This document shows, piece after piece, positions 9,665 to 33,881 of a stretch of DNA of 64,000 nt. Position 1 is the first letter of the stretch; each line of letters begins with the position of its first letter. This DNA is from Aurantiacibacter sp. MUD61 (GTDB lineage: Bacteria; Pseudomonadota; Alphaproteobacteria; Sphingomonadales; Sphingomonadaceae). A model generated the notes under the pieces. That model worked only from the letters and a program-made list of their open reading frames with translations, was not told where the DNA came from and searched no databases. The position numbers and the translations under genes are program-made. The stretch covers positions 1 through 64,000 of the forward strand of contig NZ_CP115446.1 of the NCBI RefSeq assembly GCF_027912455.1. Direction: 5' to 3'.

Positions 9665-10309
9665 ATGACTCGCAAAACCACACGCACCCTCCCCGCCCAA
9701 GCCACATCCTACGTTACCGCGCCCGCTGACGAGCCTTTGGCTCAGGATGATCCGCTTCTCCATTTCACCCCCGTCCCGCATGTCGCTCCGCGCAAGAATT
9801 CGATCACGGCGGACCGGCAGCGCAAGTTCATCGCGCATCTGGCGGCCACCGGCATCGTCAAGCAGGCGGCGCGCCATATCGGAGCTTCGCTTGAGGCACT
9901 GTACAAACTGCGCCAGCGGCCGGGGGCGGAGGAGTTTGCGCACGCCTGGGAGGCGGCGGTGGATCGCGGGGTTAGCCGATTAGAGGACTGCGCGCTCGCC
10001 CGGGCGATTGCGGGGGAGGAGCGGATGGTCGTCTCTTCGGGCAAGGTGCTCGGTACCGAAGTGCGTCATAACGAGGCGCTGGTGATGTTCTTCCTGAAGA
10101 ACCGCCGGGCGGATCGGTATGGCAATAATGGCGCGCTGGCGAATGTCGTGCCGGGGCATCCGCTTTACGAACGCATCCGCGAGGAGGTGAAGGCCGAACT
10201 GCGCGCCGAAGCCCGCGCCCGCCGCCCGCAGGTCCTCGCCAGCCTCAATGCGAAGCTCGACAAAATGCGCGAGCGGCGCGAGGCGGCGGAGAAGCTCATT
10301 TCTTCATGA
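9665..10309 (+). CDS. hypothetical protein with HTH-like region
   Basis: Protein of 214 residues from MTRKTTRTLPAQATSY. Residues about 50-85 look like a helix-turn-helix: RQRKFIAHLAATGIVKQAAR followed by HIGASLEALYKLRQRPGAE. This order resembles small terminase subunits and related phage-type DNA-binding proteins, but no terminase operon or other phage gene is nearby. The C-terminal 60 residues are highly charged and helical. The stop codon falls inside the first hairpin of a dispersed repeat element. It may be a domesticated DNA-binding protein. Confidence 0.6.
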   Translation: MTRKTTRTLPAQATSYVTAPADEPLAQDDPLLHFTPVPHVAPRKNSITADRQRKFIAHLAATGIVKQAARHIGASLEALYKLRQRPGAEEFAHAWEAAVDRGVSRLEDCALARAIAGEERMVVSSGKVLGTEVRHNEALVMFFLKNRRADRYGNNGALANVVPGHPLYERIREEVKAELRAEARARRPQVLASLNAKLDKMRERREAAEKLISS

Positions 10310-10583
10310 AGCCGCATCCGCGGCTTCGTCCTCGGTGCTATTCGCTCCGGCGGGGTTGTCCTCGCTTCGCTCGTTCAGCTTCGCTTCCCGTCCGCCTGCG
10401 CGGCACCTGCGGGTCGCGCCGTGCGCTCGGTCGGTCGCTTCGCGCCCGATCCCAGCACAACGGTCAAACGGCGCCGCGGAGCACGCTCGGCGACCAGCCG
10501 AGGGCAAGGCCGAACGGCCGCCCGCAGCGGGCGCGTAGCGTAGCGAAGCGCGTCTAGCGAGGACGAACCTGCGGATGCAGGTT
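10308..10583. repeat. hairpin-bounded intergenic element, copy 1
   Basis: Copy of 276 bases. It is bounded by hairpin GAAGCCGC-ATCC-GCGGCTTC (10308-10327) and hairpin AACCTGC-GGAT-GCAGGTT (10566-10583). Just inside are GTCCTCGGTGCTATTCGCT and the inverse end GCGCGTCTAGCGAGGACG. The core is very GC-rich and shares blocks with the copies at 19566, 30695 and 33637. It fills the gap between two convergent genes and begins within the stop codon of the first. Confidence 0.85.
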
Positions 10584-10600
10584 AATGAAACAAATCATCT

Positions 10601-11854
10601 TTAATCCACCGGCGCAGGCGGCGGGATCATCACGGGCGGCGGAGGCACCACTCCGTCCCACTCCATCGGCTCTGCGCGGGCTTCCATGCCTTCGGTGATT
10701 TCCAGCGTGTAGGCACCGCTCGAACCGCCGAGGCCCTTCGCCCGGATGCGCAGCATGGAGAGCAGCTCCGGATTGTCCGCCAGCAGGCCGAGATCGAGCG
10801 GGAGCATCGAATCGAGCGTGCCCGATCCGTCATCATCCGTCGCCACAATCGCGAAACCGAGCGGAGTTTCGAAACCGACTTCGAGGTAGGGATCGATCTG
10901 GCCGCCGAAATCGGCGTCTTCGCTCTCCACCGCGTTCATGCGGATCGTCACATCGCCATCGCCACTGCGGATCGCGGCCAGCGCGCTTTCGCTCAGCTGG
11001 TAGTCGATGAAGGCGGGGCGCATCGTATCTTCGGAGTAGGAGGAGGCGAGATCGCCGCTCGCGCGGTCGGCAAATCCGATGACCTGCAGCGGCAGCTGGG
11101 CGCTCGCCTCGCGCCGTTCGCGCACGCGCAGGACGAAATCGCCCGTGCTCTCGCCATAGCCGGTGGCGGCGATGGTGTAGGTGCCGTCTTCCTCGAACAC
11201 ATGGGTGATGAGCGAGTTGAGGCCGTTGTAATCGTCATTATAGGCGATCACCTCGCCGCTCGCATCGCGCAGTTCGAGCAGCGGATCGAGCATCTGGTCA
11301 TCGCCTGCAACCAGCGCGATTTCGACCATTTCGCCCGCAAGCCCGGCAATCTCGAACAGGTTCGGCTCGCCTTCGACCCGGCCCGTTTCGCGCGAGCCAT
11401 AGGTCACCGTGCGGGTCTCGACAGGCACGTATTCGCGCGTTTCCAGCCGCAGGTCGAAGCTGCCGCCATAGGTCTCGCCCTCGCTGACCCAGCTGGCATC
11501 GAAGCTGTTGACGGCAATGGAAATGCGGCGGCCAGTGTCCCCGCCGCGCACGCGGACGCGGGAGTTGAGGCCTTCGCCCCCGTCGTCGTCCTCGGCGATC
11601 ATCTCGCCCGTCGCGGTATCGGTCACCGTCACGATCGGATCGAGGTCGGACGTGCTCATCACGTCGATCTGCATCACCGTGCCCGCCGGAACGCTGACTT
11701 CATACACCGCCTCTGCGCTGTCGACGTCGCCCTGGAAGACGCGCACATCGCTCTGCGCGCTGTCGAGATCGCGCGCCTGCGCAAACGCCGTAGCCGGCGC
11801 CATGATCGCTGCTGCGCCGATGAGCAGAGCGGTCTTGTGAAATCCGAATCGCAT
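10601..11854 (-). CDS. secreted protein with pre-peptidase C-terminal-like domains
   Basis: Protein of 417 residues with a signal peptide (about 1-25, cleavage after AFAQA). Two beta-sandwich repeats follow (about 40-140 and 155-250), each with the pattern DPxLxLxDxxGxxxAxDDD and a later GTYTIxAxxYGEStGDFxLRV motif, as in PPC (pre-peptidase C-terminal) domains. A third, diverged repeat covers about 270-400. The tail is proline-rich (VVPPPPVMIPPPAPVD). No protease catalytic motif is visible, so it is probably a surface or periplasmic binding protein. It is a lone gene. Confidence 0.72.
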   Translation of the reverse strand: MRFGFHKTALLIGAAAIMAPATAFAQARDLDSAQSDVRVFQGDVDSAEAVYEVSVPAGTVMQIDVMSTSDLDPIVTVTDTATGEMIAEDDDGGEGLNSRVRVRGGDTGRRISIAVNSFDASWVSEGETYGGSFDLRLETREYVPVETRTVTYGSRETGRVEGEPNLFEIAGLAGEMVEIALVAGDDQMLDPLLELRDASGEVIAYNDDYNGLNSLITHVFEEDGTYTIAATGYGESTGDFVLRVRERREASAQLPLQVIGFADRASGDLASSYSEDTMRPAFIDYQLSESALAAIRSGDGDVTIRMNAVESEDADFGGQIDPYLEVGFETPLGFAIVATDDDGSGTLDSMLPLDLGLLADNPELLSMLRIRAKGLGGSSGAYTLEITEGMEARAEPMEWDGVVPPPPVMIPPPAPVD

Positions 11855-11939
11855 TGAAATTACCCCCGTAGTCTTGTCGTTGCCGCGAAGCCTAACGCCC
11901 GCGCGATTGACTTTCTAGATAACAGTTTCTGAATCGACG

Positions 11940-12464
11940 CTATTCGCGCCATTCATCTGCCAGCAGTCCCCAGAACCACGTGTCGCACCAGCCGATATGC
12001 GTCTTCATCGCATCGCGAAGATGCGCCTCCCGAGTGAAGCCGAGCCGCGCGAGCAAGCGGCTGGACGGTGTATTGCGCGGATCGACATCGGCGAACAGGC
12101 GGTGGAAGCCCTCTGCCCGAAACAGGTGGGTGATCATCGCCGCAAGGCACTCGCTCGCAATCCCCTGCCGCTCATGCCCGGGCACCAAGATATAGCCGAC
12201 CTCCGCCACGGCCTCATGCGGGGACTTTGCCACCATGCGAAACACCGGCGCGCCGCCTTCCTTCGGCTCGGCGATCCAGGTGCGCCCGCCCCATTTGTCG
12301 TCAAAGAGGTAATCCCGCAGCGCCGCCTTGTCGGTGAACGGAGCGCAGGACCAGTACCGCATCTGCGCCTCACTGGAGAAAGCGGGCCAGAATGCGTCCT
12401 CATCCCCTTCGCGCAAAGGGCGGCAGGTGAAGCGTTCGGTCTGCAATGTGGGCACAGTCGACAC
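11940..12464 (-). CDS. GNAT-family N-acetyltransferase (RimJ/RimL-like)
   Basis: Protein of 174 residues. The sequence follows the RimJ/RimL acetyltransferase pattern: LQTERFTCRPLREGDEDAFW at the N-terminus, the acetyl-CoA pyrophosphate-binding region EVGYILVPGHERQGIASECL (about 88-107), then NTPSSRLLARLGFTRE (about 130-145). The start is GTG (12464), preceded by GGAGG. It begins 4 bases after the stop of the CadC-like regulator gene, so the two are co-transcribed. The substrate is unknown; acetylation of a protein N-terminus or small amine is typical for the family. Confidence 0.82.
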   Translation of the reverse strand: MSTVPTLQTERFTCRPLREGDEDAFWPAFSSEAQMRYWSCAPFTDKAALRDYLFDDKWGGRTWIAEPKEGGAPVFRMVAKSPHEAVAEVGYILVPGHERQGIASECLAAMITHLFRAEGFHRLFADVDPRNTPSSRLLARLGFTREAHLRDAMKTHIGWCDTWFWGLLADEWRE

Positions 12465-12468
12465 CTGG

Positions 12469-14415
12469 CTAGTCCTCCTCGTAAGGCTGCACGGGGAAGA
12501 CCGGCAGGCCAGTCGTCAGGCCCTGCTCGCGGCGGTAATCGGCGACGGCCTTGAAGCGGGGAATATCGAAAATCGCGTGGTAACGCGGATCGGCGCGGAT
12601 TTCCTCCTCGGGCGCAAGACGATGGTCGTCAAGGAAAGTCAGGATCACCGATGCCGGCGCATATTCCAGCGTGCGCATTGATATGTCGAAGCCTGCATCG
12701 ATAAAGCCATATTCCCATAACATCAGGACCCAGTGGCTTATCCCGCCGGTGCCGCCGGTGTCGACATAGTCTTGCATGAAGGGGTTTGGATCGCCGCGGA
12801 AAATGTACCGACCATGGGCAATAAGGGATTCCGTGCGCGTCGCTGAGCCCGCCCCGTAGGCGCGGTCATCCTCGTAGAGCTCGGCGATGGAATCGATCGA
12901 TTGGTAGAAGTGGAAGGGCTCACCATCCCGTGACAACGCTTCCCACCATTCCAGCCCGGCTCGCCAGCAGTCTATCCGACAATCGCGCGCGCTCTGGCCG
13001 GCTGCGAGATGATCGCCATTCTCGATCAGGATGCGACGGCGTGCGTTTTCCAATGTTTTGTTGAACGGGTCGGCGGCAATAGCCTGGTCGATATGTTCAA
13101 GCGCCGCCCGACCATTGCCCGCATATCTTTGCGCCAGCGCCGTCAAGCCATGCGCTCTGCCCGATTGCGGATTTTCTTCGAGCAAACTCTCCGCAATCTG
13201 CAAACCGGTCCCGACATCGCCTAATGTGTGCAGGACAGCGAATCCGCGTGCGAGGCGCAGCAGGAAGCTTTGCGGATCGAGAGCCTCGGCACGATCGAGT
13301 GAGCTCTGCAACAGGTCGGAATAATCTTCCGGAGTGATCGAGAAGGAATGGTTGGTGCCGACTGCAAGGATATAGGCGATTCCGGCATGCGCATCGGCGA
13401 ATTCGGGTTCGATGGAGGCGGCAAGCTGGAATTTGCTCAGCGCTGCGGCGGTGTCGTTGAAATTGGTGGGGGAAGACAGCGCGAGACCATCCATGAAGGC
13501 ACGGCGCGCGCGCGGATCGAGATCATCGGGAAGCTTGACCTCTCCCTTTCCGATGGCCTGATAAGCTACGATAATTCCAGCAATCCGGTTGAGCATAACC
13601 GCGCCGAATTCATCGGCATATTGTGGTTCGCCAAGCACTTCGGTGCTCCACACCGCTTGCCCGGTCCTTCCATCGACCAAGCGCAATTGTCCCACCAGCC
13701 GCTCCTCGCCCGCCTGCACGTCGCCTTCAATGAAGTGGTCTACGCCTAGCCGGTCGGCGATCTGGGTTGGATCGAGACCCTGCCCGACCACTGCCGCAGT
13801 AGCCGTATCCGAAGCTAGCTCGATATCGGGCAACTGCGACAAATTGCCGGCTATAGACGCGGCCATCGGCTCTGCGCGGTCGCGCAGGTCGGCCGGTCCG
13901 GTAATGTCGAAAGGCAGGACGGCAATCCGTTGCGGCGCAGCTCCTGCGGACGGCGACTGGCCCCAGCTTCCGAAAGCGCTTGCTAGCCAGAACACACCGG
14001 CGGTCACTAGAACCGCGAGTGCCGCAATGGCGGCCATGTGTAGAGACTTCGAAGAACGCGGCGATGTCGCGGGGGCGGGTTCGGGCTGTGATCCTGAATC
14101 ACTCGAGACGGCATGCTCTGGCGCATCGGGCTGCACCACCTGGTATCCGATGCCGCGAATGGTCTGAAGCAGGGATGCGTCTTCACCCAGTGCCTTGCGC
14201 AGCGCGGCGACATGCACTTGCAGCGCATTCTCTTCCACTGTGACATTGGGCCAGACGGCTTCCATCAGCTCGTCCTTGGTCACGATCTCGCCGGCAGCTT
14301 CGGCAAGGACGGTCAGGATGGCGAGTGCACGTGGCCCCAGATGCACATGCGCACCATCCCGCATCAGCTGGCGATGCGGTTGCAGCACATGCGATCCGAT
14401 CCGGATTTCCTCCAC
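12469..14415 (-). CDS. CadC-like membrane-anchored winged-helix regulator with TPR region
   Basis: Protein of 648 residues. A GTG start at 14415 is preferred since GAGGGGG lies 7 bases upstream; a TTG five codons earlier is possible. Residues 1-95 form an OmpR/PhoB-type winged helix (LGPRALAILTVLAE, NALQVHVAALRKALGED, IRGIGYQV). A linker rich in Ser and Pro leads to one membrane helix (about 126-148). The periplasmic part begins with an IAVLPFDITGP-type domain and continues with tetratricopeptide-like repeats. The layout matches CadC-like one-component regulators that sense outside the cytoplasm. It is transcribed away from urcA-like 14746 and upstream of the GNAT gene. Confidence 0.82.
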   Translation of the reverse strand: MEEIRIGSHVLQPHRQLMRDGAHVHLGPRALAILTVLAEAAGEIVTKDELMEAVWPNVTVEENALQVHVAALRKALGEDASLLQTIRGIGYQVVQPDAPEHAVSSDSGSQPEPAPATSPRSSKSLHMAAIAALAVLVTAGVFWLASAFGSWGQSPSAGAAPQRIAVLPFDITGPADLRDRAEPMAASIAGNLSQLPDIELASDTATAAVVGQGLDPTQIADRLGVDHFIEGDVQAGEERLVGQLRLVDGRTGQAVWSTEVLGEPQYADEFGAVMLNRIAGIIVAYQAIGKGEVKLPDDLDPRARRAFMDGLALSSPTNFNDTAAALSKFQLAASIEPEFADAHAGIAYILAVGTNHSFSITPEDYSDLLQSSLDRAEALDPQSFLLRLARGFAVLHTLGDVGTGLQIAESLLEENPQSGRAHGLTALAQRYAGNGRAALEHIDQAIAADPFNKTLENARRRILIENGDHLAAGQSARDCRIDCWRAGLEWWEALSRDGEPFHFYQSIDSIAELYEDDRAYGAGSATRTESLIAHGRYIFRGDPNPFMQDYVDTGGTGGISHWVLMLWEYGFIDAGFDISMRTLEYAPASVILTFLDDHRLAPEEEIRADPRYHAIFDIPRFKAVADYRREQGLTTGLPVFPVQPYEED

Positions 14416-14745
14416 CTTGCCCCCTCGCAAGCTTCAGCCTTCCAGCCTGACGCTGGAGGCAAGCTTGAACTGTCACAGGCAATGGCCCTTTGGCAAGATG
14501 CGCGCGAGCTCGCACGCCAAATCCGCGAATTCACAAACCTCTGAATTTGCCCAGGAAAAATTCGAACCTTCAGGAAAACAACAGGTTTCAGCGAAGTTTC
14601 ATCCAATTCTCACGCAATCGCCAAGGCACAATCTTGCGCATCCATCCACAACGATCCTCGTCAACGGGACAACACCCGGCAGGGGCAAGCTGAAACCGGC
14701 GATGGAGGCCTTCGGGCCAACGGATTAATCTCGAAAGGATTTGCC
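14416..14745. other. divergent intergenic region, no gene seen
   Basis: This 330-base gap separates the divergent CadC-like and UrcA genes and must hold both promoters. The AAAGGA before 14746 is a good ribosome site for the UrcA gene. No clear promoter pair, terminator or structured RNA was found, and short ORFs in it lack ribosome sites. Confidence 0.5.
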
Positions 14746-15117: not shown

Positions 15118-15143
15118 GCCTTCGAGAATCTCGCTTCCGCGTC

Positions 15144-16935: not shown

Positions 16936-19536
16936 ATGTTCCGCCTGCTGCTTGCTGCTTTCGCTTCCCTTGCCGTGATGGTTTCACCCGCAGCGGCGCA
17001 AAGCTTCCTTGAAGGCAATTTCGAAGAGAGCATTCCGACGCTGGAAGAAGTGGCTGGCCATCGATCCGGCGAGCAGATCACCCGGCCCGACATGGTGCTG
17101 CGCTATATGGAAGCGTTGGCCGAAGCCGCGCCCGAGCGGATGCGGATTGTGGAATATGCGACGAGCTGGGAAGGTCGCCCGCTTGTCTATGCGGTCATCA
17201 CCAGCCGTGCGAACATGGCGCGCATCGATGCTATCCAAGCCGATATGCAGCGCATCGCGAACGGCGGGGCCCCGGGGGCGGACAGCGTGCCTGTCACCTG
17301 GCTTTCCTACGGCGTGCATGGCGATGAGATCAGCTCGTCCGATGCGGCGCTGGCGGTGGCCTACCACCTGCTGGCAGCACAGGGGGACGAGCTTGTTGAC
17401 CTGATCCTCGGCAATAGCGTGGTGATTATCGATCCCTCGCAAAACCCCGATGGGCGGGCGCGTTTCACCAATTCCTATTACGCGCAGCTGGGCATTGCGC
17501 CTTCGGGCAATCGTTACACGGCGGGGCATGACCAGCCGTGGCCGGGCGGTCGCTACAACCACTATTTGTTCGACCTCAACCGCGACTGGTTTGCCCTCAC
17601 CCAGCCCGAGAGCGTGGGCAAGGTTGCCGCTGTGCGCGACTGGAATCCTGTCGTGCTCGTCGATGCGCATGAGATGGGCGGCGACAGCACCTATTTCTTC
17701 CCGCCGTCTGCCGATCCGTTCAATCCGTACATCACCTCCACCCAGCGTGAGCGGCAGGGCTTGCTCGGCCGGAACATGGCGGCGTGGATGGACCGCATCG
17801 GGGAGCCCTATTACACACGCGAAGTCTTCGATGCGTTCTACCCCGGCTATGGCGACACGTGGCCGACGCTGAACGGGGCGATCGCGATGACGTTCGAGCA
17901 GAGCAGCGCGCGCGGCCTTGTGTGGGAGCGCAGCAATGGCGAGCTGCTGACCTATGGCGAAGGCGTGCGCAATCACTTCGTCACCTCCATGGCGACGGCA
18001 GAGACGGTGGCGCGCAATGCCGATCTGTTCCTTGGCGATTATTCCGAATACCGCCGCAGCGCGGCCGCCGGAGCCGTGGGCAGCGGCTGGTTCGTGATCG
18101 ATCTGGCGGACCGCACGTGGAATGCGGAGGCCCTCGCGCGGCGCCTCGTCCATCAGGGTGTCGCCGTGGGCCGCGTGGCCGGACCTGCCACTGCATGCGG
18201 GCGTAACTATCCCGAAGGTTATCTCTCGATCTCCATGCGCCAGCCGACCGCGCGGTTGATCCGCAGCCTGCTGGACCGCGATGTGCAATTGCCTGCCGAC
18301 TTTGTGGAAGCGCAGGAAGCGCGCCGCGCGAGCGATCTGCCGCATGAGATTTACGATACCACCGCCTGGTCGGTCGGCCAGATGAGCGGGCTCGACATCG
18401 CGCAATGCAGCTCTGCCGCGAGCGGGGTTGCAGTGAGCGCCGATGCGCCGCTGCCCAACCGCGCCGATGCGCCGGGTGCGTTCGGTATCGCCGTGCCGTG
18501 GACCGATAGCGGACAGGTGCAGCTCGTCGCCCGCGCGCTTCAGGCTGGCTTGAAGGGCCGCTCGACCGATACGGCCTTCACCGTGGGCGGCGAGACCTTC
18601 CCGCGCGGTTCGGTGGTGTTCACCCTGTCCGAAAATGGCGGATCGCTCGATACGCTGGTCGAACTGGCGCGCGAGATCGGGGCGGAAACGCGCCCGCTCG
18701 CCTCCGGCTGGGTCGATGACGGCCCCAACCTCGGCAGTGACAGCTTCGTGCTGCTGCAAACCCCGCGCATCGCGATGCTGTGGGACGGCAACATCTCCCC
18801 GCTCTCTGCCGGGGCGAGCCGCTATGTGATCGAGCAGCGCTTCGGCCTGCCCGTCGCGCCGATCCGCGTCGACAATGTGGCGCGCGCGCAGTTGGGCGAT
18901 TTCGACGTGCTGCTGGTCACCGATAGCTTTGGTCTGCCTTCTGCGGCCCGCTCCGCCATTGCGCGCTTTGTGAATGATGGCGGCGTGCTGGTGACCTACG
19001 GCAATTCGCTTGCGAGCTTTGCCAGCGGCGATGATGCCCTCTTCGCCACGCAGCGCGAGACGGTTCTGGGCGGCGATCCGAAGGAAGAAGAGGCAGACGG
19101 CAGCAGCGCCCCCGGTATCGCGTTCGAGGATGCGGACGATTATCGCGAAGCGATCCTCGACCAGACCCGTCGCCCCGATACCCTGCCCGGCGCATTGCTC
19201 AACACGGTAGTGGATGGCGAGAATTTCCTCGCCGCCGGATACGATGGCTCGGCCCCCACGGTATTCGCGAACGGATCGCTGATCCTCACTCCGCTGACCC
19301 TGTCGGACGGGGTGAATGTGGTTCGCTATGCCGGACCAGACGACCTGGTCGCATCGGGCTATGTCTGGGACGAAAACCGCCGCCAGATGGCGTTCAAGCC
19401 CTATATGATTGCCCAACCCAACGGCCGCGGCCTCGCCATCGGTTTCGCGCATGATCCCACGGTTCGCGGATATCTCGACGGGCTGGACTTGCTGCTGGCG
19501 AATGCGGTGCTGGTCGCGCCCTCAAGAGTGAAGTAA
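16936..19536 (+). CDS. secreted M14-family zinc carboxypeptidase
   Basis: Protein of 866 residues with a signal peptide (about 1-22, AAAQS). The M14 catalytic domain spans about 35-370: zinc ligands in HGDE (His128, Glu131), the third ligand in DAHEMGGDS (His245), an NPDGRAR loop (170-176) and the catalytic Glu in AMTFEQSS (Glu321). The C-terminal 450 residues resemble a glutamine-amidotransferase-like fold region (FDVLLVTDSFGLPSAARSAI). Such large M14 proteins are exported and trim peptides. GGAGA precedes the ATG. It is a single gene divergent from the LysR regulator. Confidence 0.88.
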   Translation: MFRLLLAAFASLAVMVSPAAAQSFLEGNFEESIPTLEEVAGHRSGEQITRPDMVLRYMEALAEAAPERMRIVEYATSWEGRPLVYAVITSRANMARIDAIQADMQRIANGGAPGADSVPVTWLSYGVHGDEISSSDAALAVAYHLLAAQGDELVDLILGNSVVIIDPSQNPDGRARFTNSYYAQLGIAPSGNRYTAGHDQPWPGGRYNHYLFDLNRDWFALTQPESVGKVAAVRDWNPVVLVDAHEMGGDSTYFFPPSADPFNPYITSTQRERQGLLGRNMAAWMDRIGEPYYTREVFDAFYPGYGDTWPTLNGAIAMTFEQSSARGLVWERSNGELLTYGEGVRNHFVTSMATAETVARNADLFLGDYSEYRRSAAAGAVGSGWFVIDLADRTWNAEALARRLVHQGVAVGRVAGPATACGRNYPEGYLSISMRQPTARLIRSLLDRDVQLPADFVEAQEARRASDLPHEIYDTTAWSVGQMSGLDIAQCSSAASGVAVSADAPLPNRADAPGAFGIAVPWTDSGQVQLVARALQAGLKGRSTDTAFTVGGETFPRGSVVFTLSENGGSLDTLVELAREIGAETRPLASGWVDDGPNLGSDSFVLLQTPRIAMLWDGNISPLSAGASRYVIEQRFGLPVAPIRVDNVARAQLGDFDVLLVTDSFGLPSAARSAIARFVNDGGVLVTYGNSLASFASGDDALFATQRETVLGGDPKEEEADGSSAPGIAFEDADDYREAILDQTRRPDTLPGALLNTVVDGENFLAAGYDGSAPTVFANGSLILTPLTLSDGVNVVRYAGPDDLVASGYVWDENRRQMAFKPYMIAQPNGRGLAIGFAHDPTVRGYLDGLDLLLANAVLVAPSRVK

Positions 19537-19565: not shown

Positions 19566-19830
19566 GGCACGCCCATCCGGGCGCGCCATCCTCGGTGCTG
19601 TTCGCTCCGGCGGGACTTCGTTCCGCCTGCGCGGCACCTGCGGGCTTCGCGGTTGCTCGCTGTCGCTAGCCTACGGCCAGCGATCCTCGCGCTTCAGTCA
19701 ATAGATGTCGCGGAGCACGCTCGGCGACCAGCCGAGGGCAAGGGCAAACGCCCGCCCGCAGCGAGCGCGTACCCCGGACTTGATCCGGGGGGAGTGCGTC
19801 TAGCGAGGACGATCGCCCGGATGGGCGATC
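19566..19830. repeat. hairpin-bounded intergenic element, copy 2, with nested REP
   Basis: Copy of 265 bases. The left hairpin is GGCACGCCC-ATCC-GGGCGCGCC (19566-19587, one mismatch); the right one is GATCGCCC-GGAT-GGGCGATC (19811-19830). The inner motifs are ATCCTCGGTGCTGTTCGCT and GTGCGTCTAGCGAGGACG. Near the right end an extra palindrome, CCCCGGACTTGATCCGGGG (19772-19790), interrupts the core; it is absent from the other copies. The element fills the gap between the convergent M14 and apaG genes. Confidence 0.85.
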
Positions 19831-19846: not shown

Positions 19847-20263
19847 CTAATTCGCCTCTTCGGCAGGCGCAGCGAGCGGGAAGAACGGAATCGCCACTTC
19901 GACTGGCTCTCCGCCTTCGGCTTCAAAGGTATAAAACCCTTCCATCGAACCGTGATTGGTCGAAAGCTCGCAGCCGGACACGTAATCATGCGTCTGCCCC
20001 GGCGCGAGATGCGGGGTTTCGCCCACCACGCCATCGCCGCTGACGATGTTGACCATGCCTTCCGCATCGGTGATCCGCCAGTGGCGGGTTTTTAGCTGCA
20101 CGCTGTCTTCGCGGCCATTCTCGATCCGGATGTGATAGACCCAGAACCAGCGGCCCGCGCTGATGCGCGATTGTTCGGGCATGAAATTGACCGAGACGCG
20201 CACGGTAATGCCATGCGTAATCGCGACATGCTGGAACAGGGACTCGATGGCTGAAACTGTCAT
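19847..20263 (-). CDS. apaG: ApaG (DUF525) protein
   Basis: Protein of 138 residues, family ApaG: a fibronectin-III-like fold of unclear role, linked in some bacteria to ApaH and Mg or Co tolerance. Diagnostic parts are FWVYHIRIENGRED, LKTRHWRITDAEG, and the strongly conserved VVGETPHLAPGQTHDYVSGC and GSMEGFYTF. Length and ends fit the family. No apaH or ksgA neighbour is present. The gene ends 16 bases from repeat element copy 2. Confidence 0.95.
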   Translation of the reverse strand: MTVSAIESLFQHVAITHGITVRVSVNFMPEQSRISAGRWFWVYHIRIENGREDSVQLKTRHWRITDAEGMVNIVSGDGVVGETPHLAPGQTHDYVSGCELSTNHGSMEGFYTFEAEGGEPVEVAIPFFPLAAPAEEAN

Positions 20264-20341: not shown

Positions 20342-22324
20342 TCAATCGGCCGGATTGTGGCGTTCCAGAAAGTCCAGTGCTGCGTCGAAATAGGCCTGTT
20401 CGTCCTCCGGCCCGTCGAAACTATGGCCCGATTCCTCGAAGCTCAGCGTCTCGATGTCCACTTCGGCACGGTTCGCGCGCGACAGCATCAGTTCGTACTG
20501 ATCATACGGCACGATCTCGTCTTCCTCGCCATGGACCAGCAGGACCGGGCGCGTCAGGCGCGCGACCTGCACGGCGGGCGAAACATCGTCGAGATCGAAA
20601 TCGGTCTGGTCGCCATCGACGCGGTCCCACCAGCGGCCCTTGTTGCGGCCAAACAGGAAATCGCGGTCATATTGCAGCTGGCGCTCGAAATGCATGACAC
20701 CGGCAAAGCTGATGGCGCAGCGATAGATCTCCGGATTGCGGATCGCACCCCATACGGCGGCAAAGCCGCCATAGCTCTCGCCCCAGATGCACACCCGGTC
20801 GGGATCGACGATCCCTTCAGCGACCAGATGCGCCACGGCATCGTCGAGATCGTCCTGCATGGCGCGGCCGATCTGGCCGTTACCAAGCAGTTCATAGGCC
20901 TCGCCATAGCCGCCTGACCCTCGGAAATTGGGCTGGATCACGGCATAGCCGCGATTGGCCATCAGCTGGACCATATCGTTGTATCTGTCGGTGTCGCGAA
21001 CGCCGAATGGCCCGCCATGCGGATGCACGATCAACGGCAGGCCGGTTTCCCCGCGCCCGCGTGGCAGCGTCAGATAGGCAGGGATCTCAGTCCCGTCGCG
21101 CGCTTCGTATCGGATCAGGCGCGGCCTCACGAGGGCTTCCTGTGGCACTTCGGGGCGATATTCGGCGAAGAGGCCCAGATGCCGCGTTTCGGGAGTGAAC
21201 GCATAAAGCGCACCGGGATAGTCCGGACCCGATTGCAGTACCAGCATCCGGCTGCGGTCGCGCGCCGTATCGAGGATCGTCACACGGCTGCCGGTAAGGG
21301 CATTGCCAAGCTGTTCGCGCCAGCGCCGCAGCTCCGGATCGATCCATTCGCGGCGGTAATTGTCGCCCGCATAGCCAACGCCAATGGGGTTGCCCGCTTC
21401 ATCGAGGACGACGCTGGTCACATCCTCATCTTCCGAGGCGAACACCACATCGCCGACTTCGCCGGTGCTGAAATCGAATTCCATGAGCGCCCTGCGGTCC
21501 GCCCCTTCCGGAATGCCGAAAGTGTAACCCGTGTCTCGCCCGGAGCGCAGACCGCCGAAATTCCAGTATTCGAAGGCATCCTCATCGTCGGCGCGGGTGC
21601 GCGCGACGGTGCTGAAACTGTTCTGCCCATTGCTGCGATAGAGCAGCCGGTAACGCCCACGGCGATAGACGGCGATGCCCATGCGGACGGTGCCCGTTTC
21701 ATCGGCGATCCAAGAGAACACATTGTCGCGATCTTCCTGGACGGTACGAGGCTCGGGCGCCCCTGCCGACAGATTGGTGAGATCGAAGCGATAGACTGCC
21801 GGCCAGGACCGCGTGCCGCGCGCCATGGATACGAGAACGAAGTCGCCTTCGGGATCGATATGGATAATGTCATCGCCATCGAAAGACATGCGCGGCAGCA
21901 CCAGCGGAGCCATGGCATTGGTGCCGAGTTCATAGGCGATCAGGCGCGAAGAGGTGTAATCGCGGCGTTCTTCACGCCGATTGACCGACAGAAGGATGCG
22001 GTTGTTTCCGGCCCAGCGGAAGAAGTTGAACAGGTCCTGGTCGCCAATGTGCGTTCCGTCGACAAGTTCGCCATTCGAAGCGTCGTAAATGCTCAGGTAC
22101 AGCGCATCATTCGCCATCATGGTGAAAGCGAATTTGGACCCGTCGGGCGAGAGCTGTGCGCCGCGCATCTGCGATTGCGAGGAGAATGCGCTGGTGGGGA
22201 TTTCCGGCGGAATATCGGACGCGCCAACCTGCGCCTGAGACGCTGGCTCCTGCGCGAAACCACTCACAGGCATAGCGAGAATGAGCGCGCCAAACATGGC
22301 GGCTAGCGGAACGGAAAACTTCAT
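20342..22324 (-). CDS. exported S9 prolyl oligopeptidase-family peptidase (paralogue 1)
   Basis: Protein of 660 residues from the Met at 22324, with a signal peptide (about 1-24, GFAQE). The N-terminal two thirds form a beta-propeller. The alpha/beta hydrolase domain carries the S9 triad: Ser in GESYGG, Asp in HGEEDEIVPY, His in ESGHSF. HPHGGPFG and FRGSGGYGEAY are oxyanion and flap motifs typical of S9C. It lies 124 bases downstream of a close paralogue in the same direction. Proline-containing peptide cleavage in the periplasm is likely. Confidence 0.88.
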   Translation of the reverse strand: MKFSVPLAAMFGALILAMPVSGFAQEPASQAQVGASDIPPEIPTSAFSSQSQMRGAQLSPDGSKFAFTMMANDALYLSIYDASNGELVDGTHIGDQDLFNFFRWAGNNRILLSVNRREERRDYTSSRLIAYELGTNAMAPLVLPRMSFDGDDIIHIDPEGDFVLVSMARGTRSWPAVYRFDLTNLSAGAPEPRTVQEDRDNVFSWIADETGTVRMGIAVYRRGRYRLLYRSNGQNSFSTVARTRADDEDAFEYWNFGGLRSGRDTGYTFGIPEGADRRALMEFDFSTGEVGDVVFASEDEDVTSVVLDEAGNPIGVGYAGDNYRREWIDPELRRWREQLGNALTGSRVTILDTARDRSRMLVLQSGPDYPGALYAFTPETRHLGLFAEYRPEVPQEALVRPRLIRYEARDGTEIPAYLTLPRGRGETGLPLIVHPHGGPFGVRDTDRYNDMVQLMANRGYAVIQPNFRGSGGYGEAYELLGNGQIGRAMQDDLDDAVAHLVAEGIVDPDRVCIWGESYGGFAAVWGAIRNPEIYRCAISFAGVMHFERQLQYDRDFLFGRNKGRWWDRVDGDQTDFDLDDVSPAVQVARLTRPVLLVHGEEDEIVPYDQYELMLSRANRAEVDIETLSFEESGHSFDGPEDEQAYFDAALDFLERHNPAD

Positions 22325-22448: not shown

Positions 22449-24437
22449 TCACTCGGCAGGATTATGTTCTGCAAGGAAATCCAGAAGGGTCTGTAGATAG
22501 GCCTCCTCGTCTTGCCTGCTGAAGAAGGAATGTCCGGAGCCTGCCAACTCGAAGGTTTCCAGTGCAACACCGGCACGCTCGGCACGCTCGACCATCAATC
22601 TATACTGACTGAAGGGCACTGTGTTGTCGCGCCTGCCATGAGCCAGCAACACCGGACGGGTCAGCCGCTCGACTTGGACTGCGGGAGATACATCGTCGAG
22701 GTCGAAATCGGTCTGGTCCCCATCCACACGCTCGCGCCAGCGGCTTGCATTCCGGCCGAAAAGATAATCGCGATCATGATGGAGCTGTCTTTCGAAATGC
22801 ATCACGCCCGCCCAGCTCGCGGCGCAGCGATATATTTCCGGATTGCGAATGACGCCCCAGACAGCTGCGAAACCGCCATAGGAACTGCCGACCAGGCAAA
22901 CCCTTTCCGGATCGGCGATACCTTGTGAGACAAGGTGCGCGACTGCGTCATCCAGATCATCTTGCATTGCGCGCCCGATCTGGCCCCAACCCAGATCCAT
23001 GAAGGATGTACCGTAGCCGCCCGAACCGCGGAAATTCGGCTGGACCACCGCATATCCGCGATTGGCCAACATCTGTACCCGGTCATCGTAACTGTCGGTG
23101 TCACGAATACCGTAAGGTCCGCCATGCGGCATCACGATCAGCGGGAGACCGGTCGGCTCCCGCCCGATCGGAAGCGTCAGATAACCATGGATGGATGTGC
23201 CATCGCGGGCATCGTAACGGATTGCCTGTGGCTCCGAGAGCTGGCGACGCTCGATCTGGGGGCGGAACTCGGCGAAACGGTCCAGTCGATCATCAGCGGG
23301 TGTGTAGACGTAAAGCGCACCGGGATAGGCAGGTCCATGCTCTACCACCAACAGTCGGGACCGGTCCGCGGCTATATCCAATATCCGCACGCGGGGTCCC
23401 GTCAGACGTGTGAGCAGATGTTCATGCATTTGCTGAATGTCGGGATCGAGCCATTTGCGCCGCGTATCATCGCCCTGGTATGACACCGCGAGCGGATTGT
23501 TTCGCTCGTCGAATATCACGGAGGACACATCCTCGTCAGGCGAAGCGAAGACGATATCGCCCGGCTGGCCGGTGCTGAAGTCAAACTCTATCAGCGCGGC
23601 GCGTTCACCGCCTTCGGGTATGCCGATCGAATAGCCTGTATTGGTATCCGAGCGAAGGCCCATGAAGTCCCAAAGGTCGAGCTCGCTTTCCTCATCATCT
23701 ACGCGCGCTTGCGCCACCCGCTCCCATTCGGCTTCCGGCCCGTCTCGGTATTGCATCTGTACCTGGCCACGTCGCTGAAAGCCGACGCCGATCCGGACAT
23801 TTCCGGCCTCATCCGCGACCCATTGGGTGACCCTGCGCTGGGGACGTTCCACGCGAACGGGCTCCGGCGGTGTCTCGGTCGTCAAATCGAAGCGCCAGAC
23901 CGCCGGCGGTTCGTCCCACGACGTGCCGAAGCTTGTCAGGACATAGTTACCCGCCGGATCGAGATGGACGATATTGTCGCCTACAAACGCCATCCGGTCC
24001 GACACCAGGGGGTGCAATACCTGCCGCTCGATATCGAAATAGAACAGCCGTGAATAGCGATACTCGCCGCGATATGTCCCAATCATCGAGAACAGCAATT
24101 TGTCATTCCCGGCCCAGCGGAAAAACCGAAAATCCTGGTCATCGCCTAGGTTCAGGCGGAAGTAGCGCTGCAGCGTGTTGGAATCGTAGACTTCTATATA
24201 AGTGTCGCCGCCGCGCAGGACTCCGTAGGCAAAGCGGTTGCCATCCGGCGAAAGTTGCGCACCGCCCAATGCCGAGCGAAATGAGAATGCGGAAAGCGGG
24301 ATGGTGTCGGGGGTCTCATCATTTGCACCAACTGCATCTGATGCCGCCGGCTTCGTGGCACGAGATTCCTGCCCAATGGCTGGCTGGCAAGCCAAAACCA
24401 AAGCGCCAATTGCTGCAAAAAACGTCCTGAATACCAT
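22449..24437 (-). CDS. exported S9 prolyl oligopeptidase-family peptidase (paralogue 2)
   Basis: Protein of 662 residues from MVFRTFFAAIGALVLACQPA at 24437 (GGGGG upstream), with a signal peptide of about 23 residues. It shares order and many blocks with the gene at 20342, for example the VDGDQTDFDLDDVSPAVQV segment. The triad is Ser in GSSYGG, Asp in HGRRDNTVP, His in AGSGHSF. The pair looks like a tandem duplication that has diverged in the propeller and around the nucleophile (GESYGG versus GSSYGG). Substrate preference may differ. Confidence 0.88.
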   Translation of the reverse strand: MVFRTFFAAIGALVLACQPAIGQESRATKPAASDAVGANDETPDTIPLSAFSFRSALGGAQLSPDGNRFAYGVLRGGDTYIEVYDSNTLQRYFRLNLGDDQDFRFFRWAGNDKLLFSMIGTYRGEYRYSRLFYFDIERQVLHPLVSDRMAFVGDNIVHLDPAGNYVLTSFGTSWDEPPAVWRFDLTTETPPEPVRVERPQRRVTQWVADEAGNVRIGVGFQRRGQVQMQYRDGPEAEWERVAQARVDDEESELDLWDFMGLRSDTNTGYSIGIPEGGERAALIEFDFSTGQPGDIVFASPDEDVSSVIFDERNNPLAVSYQGDDTRRKWLDPDIQQMHEHLLTRLTGPRVRILDIAADRSRLLVVEHGPAYPGALYVYTPADDRLDRFAEFRPQIERRQLSEPQAIRYDARDGTSIHGYLTLPIGREPTGLPLIVMPHGGPYGIRDTDSYDDRVQMLANRGYAVVQPNFRGSGGYGTSFMDLGWGQIGRAMQDDLDDAVAHLVSQGIADPERVCLVGSSYGGFAAVWGVIRNPEIYRCAASWAGVMHFERQLHHDRDYLFGRNASRWRERVDGDQTDFDLDDVSPAVQVERLTRPVLLAHGRRDNTVPFSQYRLMVERAERAGVALETFELAGSGHSFFSRQDEEAYLQTLLDFLAEHNPAE

Positions 24438-29723: not shown

Positions 29724-29724
29724 G

Positions 29725-30324: not shown

Positions 30325-30361
30325 CAGCGCTACCTAGCTCTTTATTGGGAGGATGTGGAGC

Positions 30362-30607
30362 TTACTTGGTCTTCGCTTCAAGCGCAGCGAGGCGGGCTTC
30401 AAGGATTTCAACCTTCTCGCGCGCCATAGCGGCCATGTCTTTCACCGCGTCGAATTCTTCGCGGGAGACAAAGTCCATTCCGCCCATGGCCTCTTTCATC
30501 TTCTCACGCGCATTTTCCCGCGCTTCACGGCCCATCCCAGCGAGCGTACCAGCTGCGGAATTGGCGACTTTGACGAAATCGGCGATGATCTTGTTTTCGC
30601 TTTGCAT
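30362..30607 (-). CDS. ubiK: UbiK/BMFP-family accessory factor
   Basis: Protein of 81 residues. The pattern is that of BMFP proteins: an amphipathic helix (IIADFVKVANSAAGTLAGMG) then a coiled coil (VSREEFDAVKDMAAMARE, KVEILEARLAALEAKTK). In Escherichia coli this is UbiK, an accessory factor for aerobic ubiquinone synthesis, and the trimer inserts in membranes. It is probably a separate gene upstream of recO, with a 37-base gap. Confidence 0.85.
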   Translation of the reverse strand: MQSENKIIADFVKVANSAAGTLAGMGREARENAREKMKEAMGGMDFVSREEFDAVKDMAAMAREKVEILEARLAALEAKTK

Positions 30608-30656
30608 GGTCAGAATGTGGGGTTTCTTGAGCCAAGACTCAAGATTTTTGTTTTTC

Positions 30657-30937
30657 GCACCCGCATCCGCGGGCGCGGTGATTGTCTGTTTCGAGATCGC
30701 CCATCCGGGCGATCGTCCTCGGTGCTATTCGCTCCGGCGGGCTTCGTCCGCCTTCGCGGCACCTGCGGGCTTCGCGGTTGCTCGCCGTCGCTGACCTGCG
30801 GCCAGCGAGACCAGCGCATCAGCCCATCAGCATCGCGGCGCACGGGCGGTCAGCCCGCAAGGCCGAACGGCCGCCCGCAGCGGGCGCGTAGCGGAGCGAA
30901 GCGCGTCTAGCGAGGACGAAGCCGCGGATGCGGCTTC
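30657..30937. repeat. hairpin-bounded intergenic element, copy 3, with extra outer hairpin
   Basis: The element proper is 30695-30937 (243 bases): left hairpin GATCGCCC-ATCC-GGGCGATC (30695-30714), right hairpin GAAGCCGC-GGAT-GCGGCTTC (30918-30937). The left stem equals the right stem of copy 2, and the right stem equals the left stem of copy 1, inverted. An outer hairpin of the same kind, GCACCCGC-ATCC-GCGGGCGC, lies at 30657-30676 after a T-rich stretch. The element sits in the 345-base gap between ubiK and tspO; nothing else is seen there. Confidence 0.85.
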
Positions 30938-30952
30938 GCAAACTAACGATTC

Positions 30953-31504
30953 CTAAATCTCAAAACTCTGCACTGCGCCCGTGTCATCCATTGGCGTCGC
31001 GTCGGGATTGAGCTGCAGGAACTGCCAGTTGAGCAGTGTCGCGAACAGGGCCCACGCGAGATACGGCAGGAGCAAGATCCCCGCCCATTTGCGCACTTTG
31101 AAGAACAGCACCACGGTCACGATCAGTGCCACGTCCAGCGCGATGATCACATAGAGCGCAGCCTCGATCTGCTGCTGTCCGAAGAAAATCGGCGACCATG
31201 TGAGGTTGATCGCGAATTTCACCAGGAAGGCGATGATCGCCCATGTGCGCAGGCGCGATCCCCAGGCGGCGCATACCATCGCGAAGGCAAAGCCCATCAT
31301 CGCATAAAGGATGGTCCAGACGATGCCGAAAGTCGCGGGCGGCGGGAAAGTGCTCGGCTTGTCGAGCGACTGGAACCACGCGCTATCCGCGTCGCCGCCC
31401 ACCGTGCCCGCAAGAAAGCCGAGCAGCATTGTCAGCGGCACAAGGAACAGAGCCCAGCGGATCAGGCTGGCACGCAATTGCGCGGGAGAAGCAAGGCGGT
31501 TCAT
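30953..31504 (-). CDS. tspO: TspO/MBR-family membrane protein
   Basis: Protein of 183 residues with five membrane helices. Family motifs include WFQSLDKPSTFPPPATFGIVW (first part), WTILYAMMGFA, and the NLTWSPIFFGQQQIEAAL segment. TspO binds tetrapyrroles and affects photosystem or stress gene expression in alphaproteobacteria. It has an N-terminal extension of about 25 residues. The gene stands alone between the repeat element and tlyA. Confidence 0.93.
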   Translation of the reverse strand: MNRLASPAQLRASLIRWALFLVPLTMLLGFLAGTVGGDADSAWFQSLDKPSTFPPPATFGIVWTILYAMMGFAFAMVCAAWGSRLRTWAIIAFLVKFAINLTWSPIFFGQQQIEAALYVIIALDVALIVTVVLFFKVRKWAGILLLPYLAWALFATLLNWQFLQLNPDATPMDDTGAVQSFEI

Positions 31505-31611
31505 TCAGGCTCCGACACGAGTGATTCGTCTGAGGCAAGTTTGTGGCGAGCCAGCGCCGCTTGGGCAAGCTTGGACAGAGGAACTGTCCGCAGACAGGTC
31601 ACTTCGCGCGA

Positions 31612-32382
31612 TCATGAAAACGATCCGCGCACCGCATGGACGAGGAATTCCACATTGCCTTCAGTGCCGGTGATCGGGCTTTCGGTGAGGCCTGCAATGC
31701 GCCAGCCGCTTTCTTCCAGCCACGCGGTGACTTCATCGCATACGCGGGTGTGCAATGCTTCATCGCGGACGATGCCACCCTTGCCGACTTCATGCTTGGC
31801 AACTTCGAATTGCGGCTTGATCAGTGCCACCACCCGCGCGTCCGGCGCGGCGAGCTGCAGCGGGACTTCCAGCACTTTGGCTAGACCGATGAAGCTCGCA
31901 TCGCAAACGACCCAGTCGCAGGGTCTGTCGATCAGCTGCGGAGTGAGCGCGCGGGCATTGGTCTGTTCGAGAACGGTGATCCGGTCGTCTTGCCGCAGTT
32001 TCCAGTCAAGCTGGTTGGTGCCGACATCGACCGCAAAGACGTGGTCCGCCCCGTGATGGAGCAGCACCTGCGTGAACCCGCCGGTCGAACTGCCGATGTC
32101 CATCGCCACCGCGCCGCTCGCATCAAGGCCGAAGTGCCTGATCGCATGGTCAAGCTTCATGCCGCCTCGCCCGACCCACGGATGATCGCGCCCGCGCACT
32201 TCTATCGCCCAATCTTCAGATACTTGCTGGCCGGACTTGGCAATGCGTTGCAGCTTTCCCGGGGGCCCGGCGAATACCAGCCCCGCCATCACCAGCGACT
32301 GCGCCCGCGTGCGGCTTTCCGCCTCGCCGCGAGCGACGAGCAGTTGATCGATCCGGCTGCGTGAAGGCTTGCGTTCGGCCAT
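31612..32382 (-). CDS. tlyA: TlyA-family rRNA 2-prime-O-methyltransferase
   Basis: Protein of 256 residues. An S4 RNA-binding domain covers about 8-65 (SRIDQLLVARGEAESRTRAQ). The methyltransferase domain starts near 85 with VGRGGMKLDHAI and the SAM site MDIGSSTGGFT (about 97-107), then VVCDASFIGL and ALIKPQFEV. TlyA in Mycobacterium methylates 16S and 23S rRNA and sets capreomycin sensitivity; some members were named hemolysins. Confidence 0.9.
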   Translation of the reverse strand: MAERKPSRSRIDQLLVARGEAESRTRAQSLVMAGLVFAGPPGKLQRIAKSGQQVSEDWAIEVRGRDHPWVGRGGMKLDHAIRHFGLDASGAVAMDIGSSTGGFTQVLLHHGADHVFAVDVGTNQLDWKLRQDDRITVLEQTNARALTPQLIDRPCDWVVCDASFIGLAKVLEVPLQLAAPDARVVALIKPQFEVAKHEVGKGGIVRDEALHTRVCDEVTAWLEESGWRIAGLTESPITGTEGNVEFLVHAVRGSFS

Positions 32383-32449
32383 GCGGGTGAGCGATAGTGG
32401 CCGAGACGCCGCAAGGCCAGATTCTTTATCGTGAAGGGTTCAATCGCCA

Positions 32450-33067
32450 GTGCACCTCACCCGCAAATCCGCGCCTTTCTGCAGCATCACCGTGTGCGCC
32501 ATCCTGCTCGCCGGATGCAATTCCGAACCGGAGATGGGAGGGCCTGAGCGGGCCGTGGCCGAAGCGCCCGCGCCGGTGCTGACACCCGGCGCCGCCGCAA
32601 CCGTCGCCCCCGATGGCACGGCACTTGTGCCCGGATCATGGAGCATCAACGAAGATGCGATGGGCGTGCGCGCGCAGTATGCTGCGGTCGGTGAGCAACC
32701 AGCCGTTACCGTCACATGTGATCCGACTTATGATGCAGTCACCCTATCTGTCGCCGCTACAGCCGGTGGCCCGCAGGCATGGCGGCTTGATGCAGGCGGC
32801 GAAGCGGCGCGGATCGACATGCTGCCATCGGGCGGCGTTCTGCCCGAACTGACAGCGCAGGTGAATCAAGGGCTTGCCATTATCCAGTCGCTCGCCGATC
32901 AGGGGGGTGTCTTCATGCTGACCTCTCCGCAGGGCCAGCCTTCCCAATTTCCCACCCATCCGGGCATTCGCAGGGTACTTGATCGATGCAATCCAATGGC
33001 AGCCGCACCAGTAGCGCAGGAAACACCCGATGCGGTGATCGCACCGTCAGAAGCACCTATTCGCTGA
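32450..33067 (+). CDS. lipoprotein of unknown function (tandem pair, first)
   Basis: Protein of 205 residues from a GTG start, with a lipobox at ILLAGCNS (Cys about 24). A Pro/Ala-rich linker follows, then a domain with WSINEDAMGVRAQYAAVG, VTCDPTYDAVTLSV, and a closing FPTHPGIRRVLDRC; the two distal Cys may pair. The next gene shares this design. The 3 prime end overlaps it by 82 bases. Unknown function at the inner or outer membrane. Confidence 0.7.
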   Translation: MHLTRKSAPFCSITVCAILLAGCNSEPEMGGPERAVAEAPAPVLTPGAAATVAPDGTALVPGSWSINEDAMGVRAQYAAVGEQPAVTVTCDPTYDAVTLSVAATAGGPQAWRLDAGGEAARIDMLPSGGVLPELTAQVNQGLAIIQSLADQGGVFMLTSPQGQPSQFPTHPGIRRVLDRCNPMAAAPVAQETPDAVIAPSEAPIR

Positions 33068-33624
33068 GTTCTGCCCTGATCGGCGCCCTGGCGCTCTCCG
33101 CCTGCAATGCGCCCGAGCCCGAACCGACCCCGCTGCCGCCGTCCACGCCGGCAGCCGCCGAGACGCCAGCGCGCGTGACCGCGCCTCAAGCTGCCCAGCC
33201 GCAGGAATCGGTGCCGATCGTCGAGGCATGGCAGGATGAGCGGCAAACGCCGGGAGACTGGTCCTACATGGCAGAGCCGCTGGAAACGCTCTCCGTGTTC
33301 GGAACGGGTCGCACGCCCGATACGGTGGAACTGATCGTCCGCTGCGATCTAGCCACTCGCCGCGTCGGCATCGCGCGATCCGGCACAGCGAGCGGCCAGG
33401 TCAACATGCTGATCCGCACAGAAACACAGGACCGCACGCTGACCGCCACTCCGGTAAACGATGTCGCGCCGCTCATCACGGTGGAGCTGTCACCCAATGA
33501 CAGCCTGCTCGATGCGATCGCCTTTTCCAAAGGCCGTTTCGCCGTCGATGTCCCCGGCACGCAACCGATCTACGTCCCCGCCTATCCGGAAATCACCCGG
33601 GTGATGGAGGATTGTAGGGGGTAA
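32986..33624 (+). CDS. lipoprotein of unknown function (tandem pair, second)
   Basis: Protein of 212 residues. The lipobox is ALSACNAP (Cys about 40), after a long polar N-region; no in-frame ATG, GTG or TTG lies nearer, so the ATG within the upstream gene is used. The domain matches the preceding lipoprotein: DWSYMAEPLETLSVFGTG, LIVRCDLATRRVGIA, and VPAYPEITRVMEDC at the end. It is probably a duplicate of that gene, translated by coupling because of the 82-base overlap. Function unknown. Confidence 0.68.
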   Translation: MQSNGSRTSSAGNTRCGDRTVRSTYSLSSALIGALALSACNAPEPEPTPLPPSTPAAAETPARVTAPQAAQPQESVPIVEAWQDERQTPGDWSYMAEPLETLSVFGTGRTPDTVELIVRCDLATRRVGIARSGTASGQVNMLIRTETQDRTLTATPVNDVAPLITVELSPNDSLLDAIAFSKGRFAVDVPGTQPIYVPAYPEITRVMEDCRG

Positions 33625-33636
33625 TATTTGTCTCAT

Positions 33637-33881
33637 GCGGCCACATCCGTGGCCGCGTCCTCGGTGCTATTCGCTTCGCGGGGACTTCGTTCCCGCTGCG
33701 CGGCACCTGCGGGCTTCGCGGTTGCTCGCTGTCGCTGACCTTCGGCCACCGAACCCAGCTCTTCAGTCAATCGGCGTCGCGGAGCACGGGCGCTTAGCCC
33801 GCAAGGCCGAACGGCCGCCCGCAGCGGGCGCGCAGCGTAGCGGAGCGCGTATAGCGAGGACGCGCGCCCGGATGGGCGTGC
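33637..33881. repeat. hairpin-bounded intergenic element, copy 4
   Basis: Copy of 245 bases. The left hairpin is GCGGCCAC-ATCC-GTGGCCGC (33637-33656); the right one is GCGCGCCC-GGAT-GGGCGTGC (33862-33881, one GT pair). The inner motifs are GTCCTCGGTGCTATTCGCT and GCGCGTATAGCGAGGACG. The stems differ from the other copies while loop and inner motifs are kept. It begins 12 bases after a lipoprotein stop codon. Confidence 0.85.

Follow-up and report, generated by a model that had tools for sequence, protein, structure and literature searches.

A candidate REP-like mobile element with paired, freely varying tip stems in Aurantiacibacter sp. MUD61 and other Sphingomonadaceae

GTAG repetitive extragenic palindromes (REPs), REP doublets forming hairpins (REPINs) and bacterial interspersed mosaic elements (BIMEs), which are accompanied by a REP-associated tyrosine transposase (RAYT), are non-autonomous intergenic sequences built of tagged hairpins in inverted pairs. 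Rhizobium intergenic mosaic elements (RIME) are alphaproteobacterial intergenic elements composed of palindromic modules, and the miniature inverted-repeat transposable elements (MITEs) of DDE transposons are short, non-coding and bounded by inverted ends. According to the accessible part of one survey (Di Nocera et al., 2013; PMC3733652), CGTC REPs apparently lack a dedicated transposase, most REPs between convergent genes of S. wittichii lie within 20 bp of both 3' ends, and GTAG REPs are reported to supply the stop codon TAG. Here, we describe an intergenic element found in four copies in the first 64,000 nucleotides of the Aurantiacibacter sp. MUD61 genome (NZ_CP115446.1, a single contig of 2,970,531 bases), a stretch referred to below as the window.

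We interpret this sequence as a family-restricted, REP-like, non-autonomous mobile element dispersed through folded single-stranded tips by a trans-acting factor, a reading to which we assign a probability of about 0.5. How REP-like repeats spread without a RAYT is an open question, and this element offers dozens of modules per genome together with filled and empty sites. Since its inner ends can be told apart and its stems vary freely while the loop and flanks stay constant, both shape recognition and the place of insertion become testable.

Terminal modules and the four window copies

Each element is bounded by a terminal module which, read outward at both ends, consists of the head CGAGGAC, the first arm of an 8-bp stem, a GGAT loop, the second arm, and an A-rich tail with the approximate consensus G(C/A)AAAACAAACAATC; the left loop reads ATCC because the module is inverted there. 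An earlier note on this DNA had taken the two ends for inverted repeats of one module, which holds for the outer module, identical at both ends, but not for the inner sides, which are distinct: GCGAATAGCAC-CGAGGAC (..AGCAC-CGAGGAC) at the A end and GCGTCTAG-CGAGGAC (..TCTAG-CGAGGAC) at the B end. The four copies were found where that note had placed them, its edges coinciding, give or take one base, with the outer feet of the tip hairpins. They are listed below with their neighbouring open reading frames (ORFs).

10308..10584, plus strand: copy 1, A end left and B end right; left tip 10308-10327, right tip 10565-10584 (7/8 paired); flanked by two convergent ORFs with stops at 10309 and 10601
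10328..10334, plus strand: left head GTCCTCG of copy 1, pairing with CGAGGAC at 10558-10564
19567..19830, plus strand: copy 2; left tip 19567-19586, right tip 19811-19830; flanked by a Peptidase_M14 ORF ending at 19536 and, convergent with it, an ApaG-domain ORF with its stop at 19847
30695..30937, plus strand: copy 3; left tip 30695-30714, right tip 30918-30937; 3' of a TspO/MBR ORF (30953-31504, minus strand) and 5' of an 81-aa ORF (30362-30607, minus strand)
33637..33881, plus strand: copy 4; left tip 33637-33656, right tip 33862-33881; lying 3' of an ORF with its end at 33624 and 5' of a cyclophilin-like ORF that starts at 34243
30657..30676, minus strand: extra hairpin outside copy 3, GCGCCCGC-GGAT-GCGGGTGC, in which the normal CGAGGAC head is absent

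All four copies are thus 3' to at least one gene, as had been claimed. Copies 1, 3 and 4 carry the left end GTCCTCGGTGCTATTCGCT without change; copy 2, whose left head is shifted by one base, has two mismatches to it. The eight tip stems differ in sequence and nevertheless pair, seven at 8/8 (counting G-T as a pair) and the remaining one at 7/8. The recurrence of stems at opposite ends of different copies was borne out by three of them: GAAGCCGC is shared by the left end of copy 1 and the right end of copy 3, GATCGCCC by the right end of copy 2 and the left end of copy 3, and GCGCGCCC by the left end of copy 2 and the right end of copy 4. Elsewhere in the window, a direct repeat of 212 nt (20904-21115 and 23011-23222, 76% alike) falls within two long ORFs that are neighbours and may be paralogues.

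In a wider set of 57 complete copies, from which copy 2 was left out on account of its shifted head, the distance from hairpin to hairpin is 219-331 nt. The loops, described earlier as ATCC on the left and GGAT on the right, are so in the four window copies, but relatives also carry GGAG and GGAC: among 191 well-paired modules, GGAT occurs in 126, GGAG in 62 and GGAC in 3, while GGAT is present in 38 of the 39 modules of the MUD61 genome. The loop is identical at both ends of a copy in 54 of 57 cases, whereas the stems are independent (4 alike compared with 3.1 expected). Because genomes tend toward one loop type, this agreement may reflect homogenisation, with no need for loop-loop pairing.

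Two variants of the ends were observed in addition. In eight loci, and in one further locus of the MUD61 genome, the 8-bp tip is replaced by a second, longer type, CCTAAGG..GGAN..GCCGGCGCCTGAGG (or GCTTGAGG), followed by a similar A-rich tail; in some elements the two types are combined, one at either end, which gives the ends a modular look. In six loci, a second module follows in tandem about 44 nt further outward in the same direction, as does the extra hairpin near copy 3, which is matched weakly (30649-30677, model positions 7-35) by R1, a model of the module built from 36 modules of the MUD61 genome.

Pairing of the tips and the folded core

Thirty-six modules of the MUD61 genome show paired variation far above expectation: 99.0% of cells are paired (shuffles 69.0%, slid structures 31-42%), the number of doubly changed cells is 76 compared with 19.5 in shuffles, and the covariation score is 0.781 compared with 0.192, a value reached by none of 500 shuffles. 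These rows had been gathered by a scan demanding at least 6/8 pairs and are therefore pairing-filtered. In a cleaner test, modules were picked by the exact pattern CGAGGAC-N8-GGA, with no pairing criterion, from loci fetched by DNA similarity, end pattern or neighbouring gene. The 93 modules obtained contain 42 distinct 5' arms; 79 pair at 8/8, 12 at 7/8 and only 2 at 4/8, in agreement with the prediction that further copies would keep their stems paired. The same pairing-blind choice across all loci gave 164 of 181 modules paired at 8/8. Among 112 GGAT modules taken without a pairing filter, 104 pair at 8/8, 7 at 7/8 and 1 at 3/8, some of their loci having been fetched with a pairing-aware model.

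Changes between orthologous sites are compensatory as well, as expected of a structured RNA or a single-stranded DNA. In 150 site pairs, which come from 28 clusters of at least two members and are related by descent, 396 base-pair differences were counted, of which 372 are two-sided, 10 are one-sided and 14 involve an unpaired cell. The covariation reported in the earlier note is thus real, but its conclusion that the folded form has been kept stands only in part, as some of the signal comes from whole-tip replacement at one site. Copy 1 is common to MUD61 and the sister genome G024 with the same left tip, whereas its right tip has been wholly replaced (GAACCTGC in MUD61, GATCGCCC in G024) and core blocks have changed; tips have also been replaced as a whole at a QueE-like site. 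Covariation by itself is therefore no proof of site-by-site selection on folding, and, as it can arise by exchange of whole hairpins, it calls for caution in the discovery of structured RNAs.

Such exchange invites an explanation without any folded function, in which the tips are palindromic through hairpin-perfecting template switching in the stem and gene conversion between copies. The replacements at copy 1 and at the QueE-like site agree with it, as do the stems of the 150 orthologous pairs, which are identical in 20 and differ by at least three base pairs in 80. We nevertheless consider it unlikely, since the loop, head, tail and closing C-G pair are constant while the stem varies, the many different stems (42 distinct 5' arms) are paired throughout, and the excess of G.T over A.C described below would not be expected.

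Between the modules lies a folded core. In an alignment of 48 copies (of the 57, four without clear A/B orientation and five long or atypical ones were left out), the head pairing GTCCTCG/CGAGGAC is nearly invariant, and internal hairpins vary with pairing mostly kept at columns 107-127 (77-100% per position), 221-232 (96-100%) and 52-70 (94-96%). The alignment is imperfect, and what we claim from it is paired variation rather than a finished structure. For six copies, the predicted RNA folding energies are -140 to -155 kcal/mol, compared with means of -114 to -122 for 60 simple shuffles each. The consensus tails of the two ends, TTTGTTT on the left and AAACAAA on the right, are complementary to each other, so that a single strand could fold into a junction with four arms, made up of the tails, both tips and the core.

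The mismatched pairs carry a weak strand signal. On the GGAN strand, distinct stems from all loci contain 12 G.T and 4 A.C (one-sided p 0.04). When the 48 copies are all oriented from A to B, 8 A.C or C.A and 1 T.G occur in the left tips, compared with 6 G.T and no A.C in the right tips. Each end leans to its own outward strand, which weighs weakly against a single long RNA of fixed direction as the sole folded form; the lean could also stem from strand-biased C-to-T change. In the core, the A-to-B strand is the more stable in 38 of 48 copies, yet the G.T and A.C counts conflict from helix to helix.

Gain, exchange and placement at gene ends

Evidence of mobility comes from orthologous sites. 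The flanks of copies 3 and 4 match at approximately 89-99% in G024, whose ApaG is 100% identical over 137 residues, but neither copy is present there. G022 and G017 likewise lack both copies, and G354 lacks copy 3 and holds a different element at the site of copy 4. Absence from the sister genome and the outgroups implies that these two copies were gained, and they provide the filled and empty orthologous sites expected of a mobile element. Copy 2 is absent in G024 too; the corresponding place there (loci L182/L212) is occupied by another repeat-like intergenic sequence with CTCTCCC/GGGAGAG arms. On the 3' side of apaG in 30 genomes, including MUD61 (30 of 40 loci), some have copies at various distances, some have other hairpins and many are empty.

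The element is restricted to the family Sphingomonadaceae. A 256-nt query matched 35 pieces of the MUD61 genome, in which 18 left ends were found with up to three mismatches, compared with 1 for a reversed control pattern; R1 matched 43 places at E values up to 1. Complete copies number 16, of which 15 come from the standard listing and the other is copy 2. In the GTDB collection, 35 stretches contain the 19-base end without mismatch; they are assigned to Aurantiacibacter (four species or strains), Alteraurantiacibacter aquimixticola, Erythrobacter sp. EC-HK427, uncultured Erythrobacter and Sphingomonadaceae, and two contigs labelled Alphaproteobacteria bacterium. The ends are thus conserved outside the window, and R1 matches 36 of 37 genomes of the genus, MUD61 included (G016 has no match and G035 one). 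Within the family, R1 matches 61 of 298 genomes and 25 of 96 genera; it matches none of 24 genomes from other families of the order. In a sample of the order, 64 of 296 genomes match, all 64 in the same family, and in a sample of the class 3 of 289, again all in this family, to which some of the 286 genomes without a match may also belong. Wherever more than 40 genomes were scanned, filters were stricter and few candidates (23-114) were scored in each genome, which makes the resulting copy numbers lower bounds. A plasmid and phage search gave no matches to the element.

At a given site, the position of the tips is better kept than their sequence or the orientation of the core. With A/B typing by simple patterns, orientation is opposite in 51 of 125 typed site pairs, 17 of them at equal distance to the stop codon; these 17 fall into nine clusters representing eight sites, as two clusters are the two sides of one site. 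Both repeated insertion into the same place and inversion in place fit such changes. In 56 copies, direct repeats of 4-9 nt at the borders are no commoner than in shuffles, and this lack of target duplication is as expected for REP-like rather than DDE-type movement. One locus (L184, the same as L226) resembled two half tips joined, and an excision scar was considered and rejected: across 40 same-genus genomes, the pattern had 6 matches, 3 of them hairpins of this element type, compared with 5 control matches, and a looser scan of the loci was swamped by chance among the matches listed.

Many modules lie close to stop codons. For 142 of 189 modules, an open frame of at least 90 codons reading toward the element ends 3-80 nt outside it. 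Across 75 gene clusters, the distance to the stop is 10 in 20, 15 in 9, 6 in 7 and 5 in 5. ORFs were called as the longest open frames and some clusters look spurious, making neighbour counts approximate; by these calls, the 57 copies have 3' ends on both sides in 26 cases and a gene 5' end on one side in 20 and on both sides in 9. We rejected a fixed insertion distance of 5, 10 or 15 from stops, because stop codons can form within the A-rich tail, in a manner recalling the TAG that GTAG REPs are reported to supply, and can account for most of the discrete values, the distance of 15 excepted. By our own reading of the tail, the triplets at offsets 5, 6, 9, 10 and 13 appear to be one change from a stop, or nearly so. 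Of the 105 modules whose stop lies no more than 30 nt away, 43 have a stop triplet at offset 10, compared with 1 of 37 with a stop at 31-80 nt and 3 of 48 without a 3' gene.

This placement brings in the strongest rival, in which the element is a structured RNA kept by selection at mRNA 3' ends, with transcripts running across it and its far tip, then GGAU, blocking 3' exonucleases or ending transcription and so insulating convergent genes. The closeness of modules to stop codons, the 26 copies between two 3' ends, the recurrence of the element beside the same gene in several species, the paired variation of the core and the G.T lean on the outward strand at both ends all speak for it. It is harder to reconcile with the 20 copies that face a gene 5' end on one side and the 9 that do so on both, the tips of which are paired too (the listing having required at least 7/8, this is no independent test), with the absence of two of the four window copies in the sister genome, with the absence of any match among the Rfam 15 covariance models, and with the conflicting core counts. 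We regard such a role as possible but rather doubtful, and it could hold together with mobility for the same element.

Two more specific RNA functions did not fit. CsrA sites resemble the GGA loop, yet CsrA was found in none of 298 family genomes, MUD61 included (controls match in 3 of 14), which removes a CsrA decoy or CsrA-binding RNA. An intrinsic terminator does not agree with the order of parts, as the tip is followed by the A-rich tail or GTCCTCG on either strand and no T run comes directly after it. Separately, six loci have a perfect hairpin, belonging to the neighbouring gene, immediately ahead of the T-rich tail; this was seen in 5 of 15 modules at distances of 18-30, compared with 0.4 in shuffles, with no excess at other distances, and in these few loci a terminator would find its T run in the T-rich tail.

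For the REP-like mobile element that we favour, the proposed course is as follows. Two outward-facing copies of one module (CGAGGAC, 8-bp stem, GGAN loop, A-rich tail) enclose the folded core with its A and B inner ends, and each tip would act while folded in single-stranded form, probably on the GGAN strand that reads outward. A putative trans-acting factor would recognise the loop, head and tail rather than the letters of the stem. Insertions surviving at gene ends could gain a stop codon from the tail and place their hairpins in the 3' transcript, and whole tips may be exchanged between copies. A narrower version, in which a non-RAYT factor recognises the single-stranded constant loop, head and tail around nearly any stem, inserts beside stops without target duplication, and leaves tip stems and core orientation exchangeable in place, is put forward only tentatively.

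Several points weigh against mobility of this kind. No mover was found in MUD61, Y1_Tnp being the only family searched for and absent, and no autonomous relative was seen. Whole-tip exchange can spread paired stems without selection, and elements recurring at one orthologous site could instead be old copies that have been retained and serve the cell. The strand signal is weak in the unbiased loci (G.T to A.C 10 to 4, p 0.09), and the insertion borders are blurred by further differences of some nucleotides between filled and empty sites.

Comparison with known systems

The earlier note had proposed either a REP-doublet-like mobile element or a structured RNA family and had suggested looking for a RAYT or IS200/IS605-type transposase. 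The gain of copies 3 and 4 favours the first, but a RAYT or IS200/IS605-type partner is not supported: Y1_Tnp (PF01797) has no match in the MUD61 genome and matches 3 of 40 same-genus genomes (controls 5 of 14). In the literature, largely outside subscription journals, no name for such an element appears in titles or abstract openings among the matches listed, and the accessible parts of PMC12306157 and PMC2873474 do not describe it.

Like GTAG REPs, REPINs and BIMEs, the element consists of conserved-tag hairpins in inverted pairs, from which its long structured core sets it apart; in place of GTAG, it has GGAC 5' of the stem on the GGAT strand and a T-rich tail on the other strand. With RIME it shares an alphaproteobacterial host range, intergenic position and palindromic modules, a likeness at the level of description. 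Unlike MITEs, it has no target duplication, and its inverted ends hold a freely varying stem.

The closest layout is that of the CGTC REPs as presented in the accessible part of PMC3733652 (Di Nocera et al., 2013). They too are mostly alphaproteobacterial, have stems of 8-9 bp and loops of 4-5 nt, form inverted dimers with the tags inside, adjoin gene 3' ends and vary in stem sequence, and the element agrees with them in stem, loop, dimeric arrangement and location. They differ in their CGTC (TGTC, CCTC) tag, AT at stem positions 1-2 and CCA tail, where the element has the head CGAGGAC, a first pair G-C and the tail GCAAAACAAAC; moreover, the element contains a conserved folded core of approximately 190 nt between its modules, none being described for CGTC REPs in that part. 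A single canonical CGTC-type REP (CGTCATCCCCGCGAAGGCGGGGATCCA) was observed in a contig (L118) that bears the element too. That the element is an ordinary GTAG or CGTC REP moved by a RAYT encoded elsewhere seems very improbable to us: the 8-bp stem, 4-nt loop, inverted dimers with inner tags and a position beside stop codons like that reported for S. wittichii CGTC-1 speak for it, but these differences in tag, tail and first stem pairs, with Y1_Tnp absent from the MUD61 genome, speak against it. We conclude that the element is most likely REP-like rather than a REP of a described family, because its layout fits while tag and tail differ, the GTAG-class transposase is missing in MUD61, and a folded core has been added between the modules.

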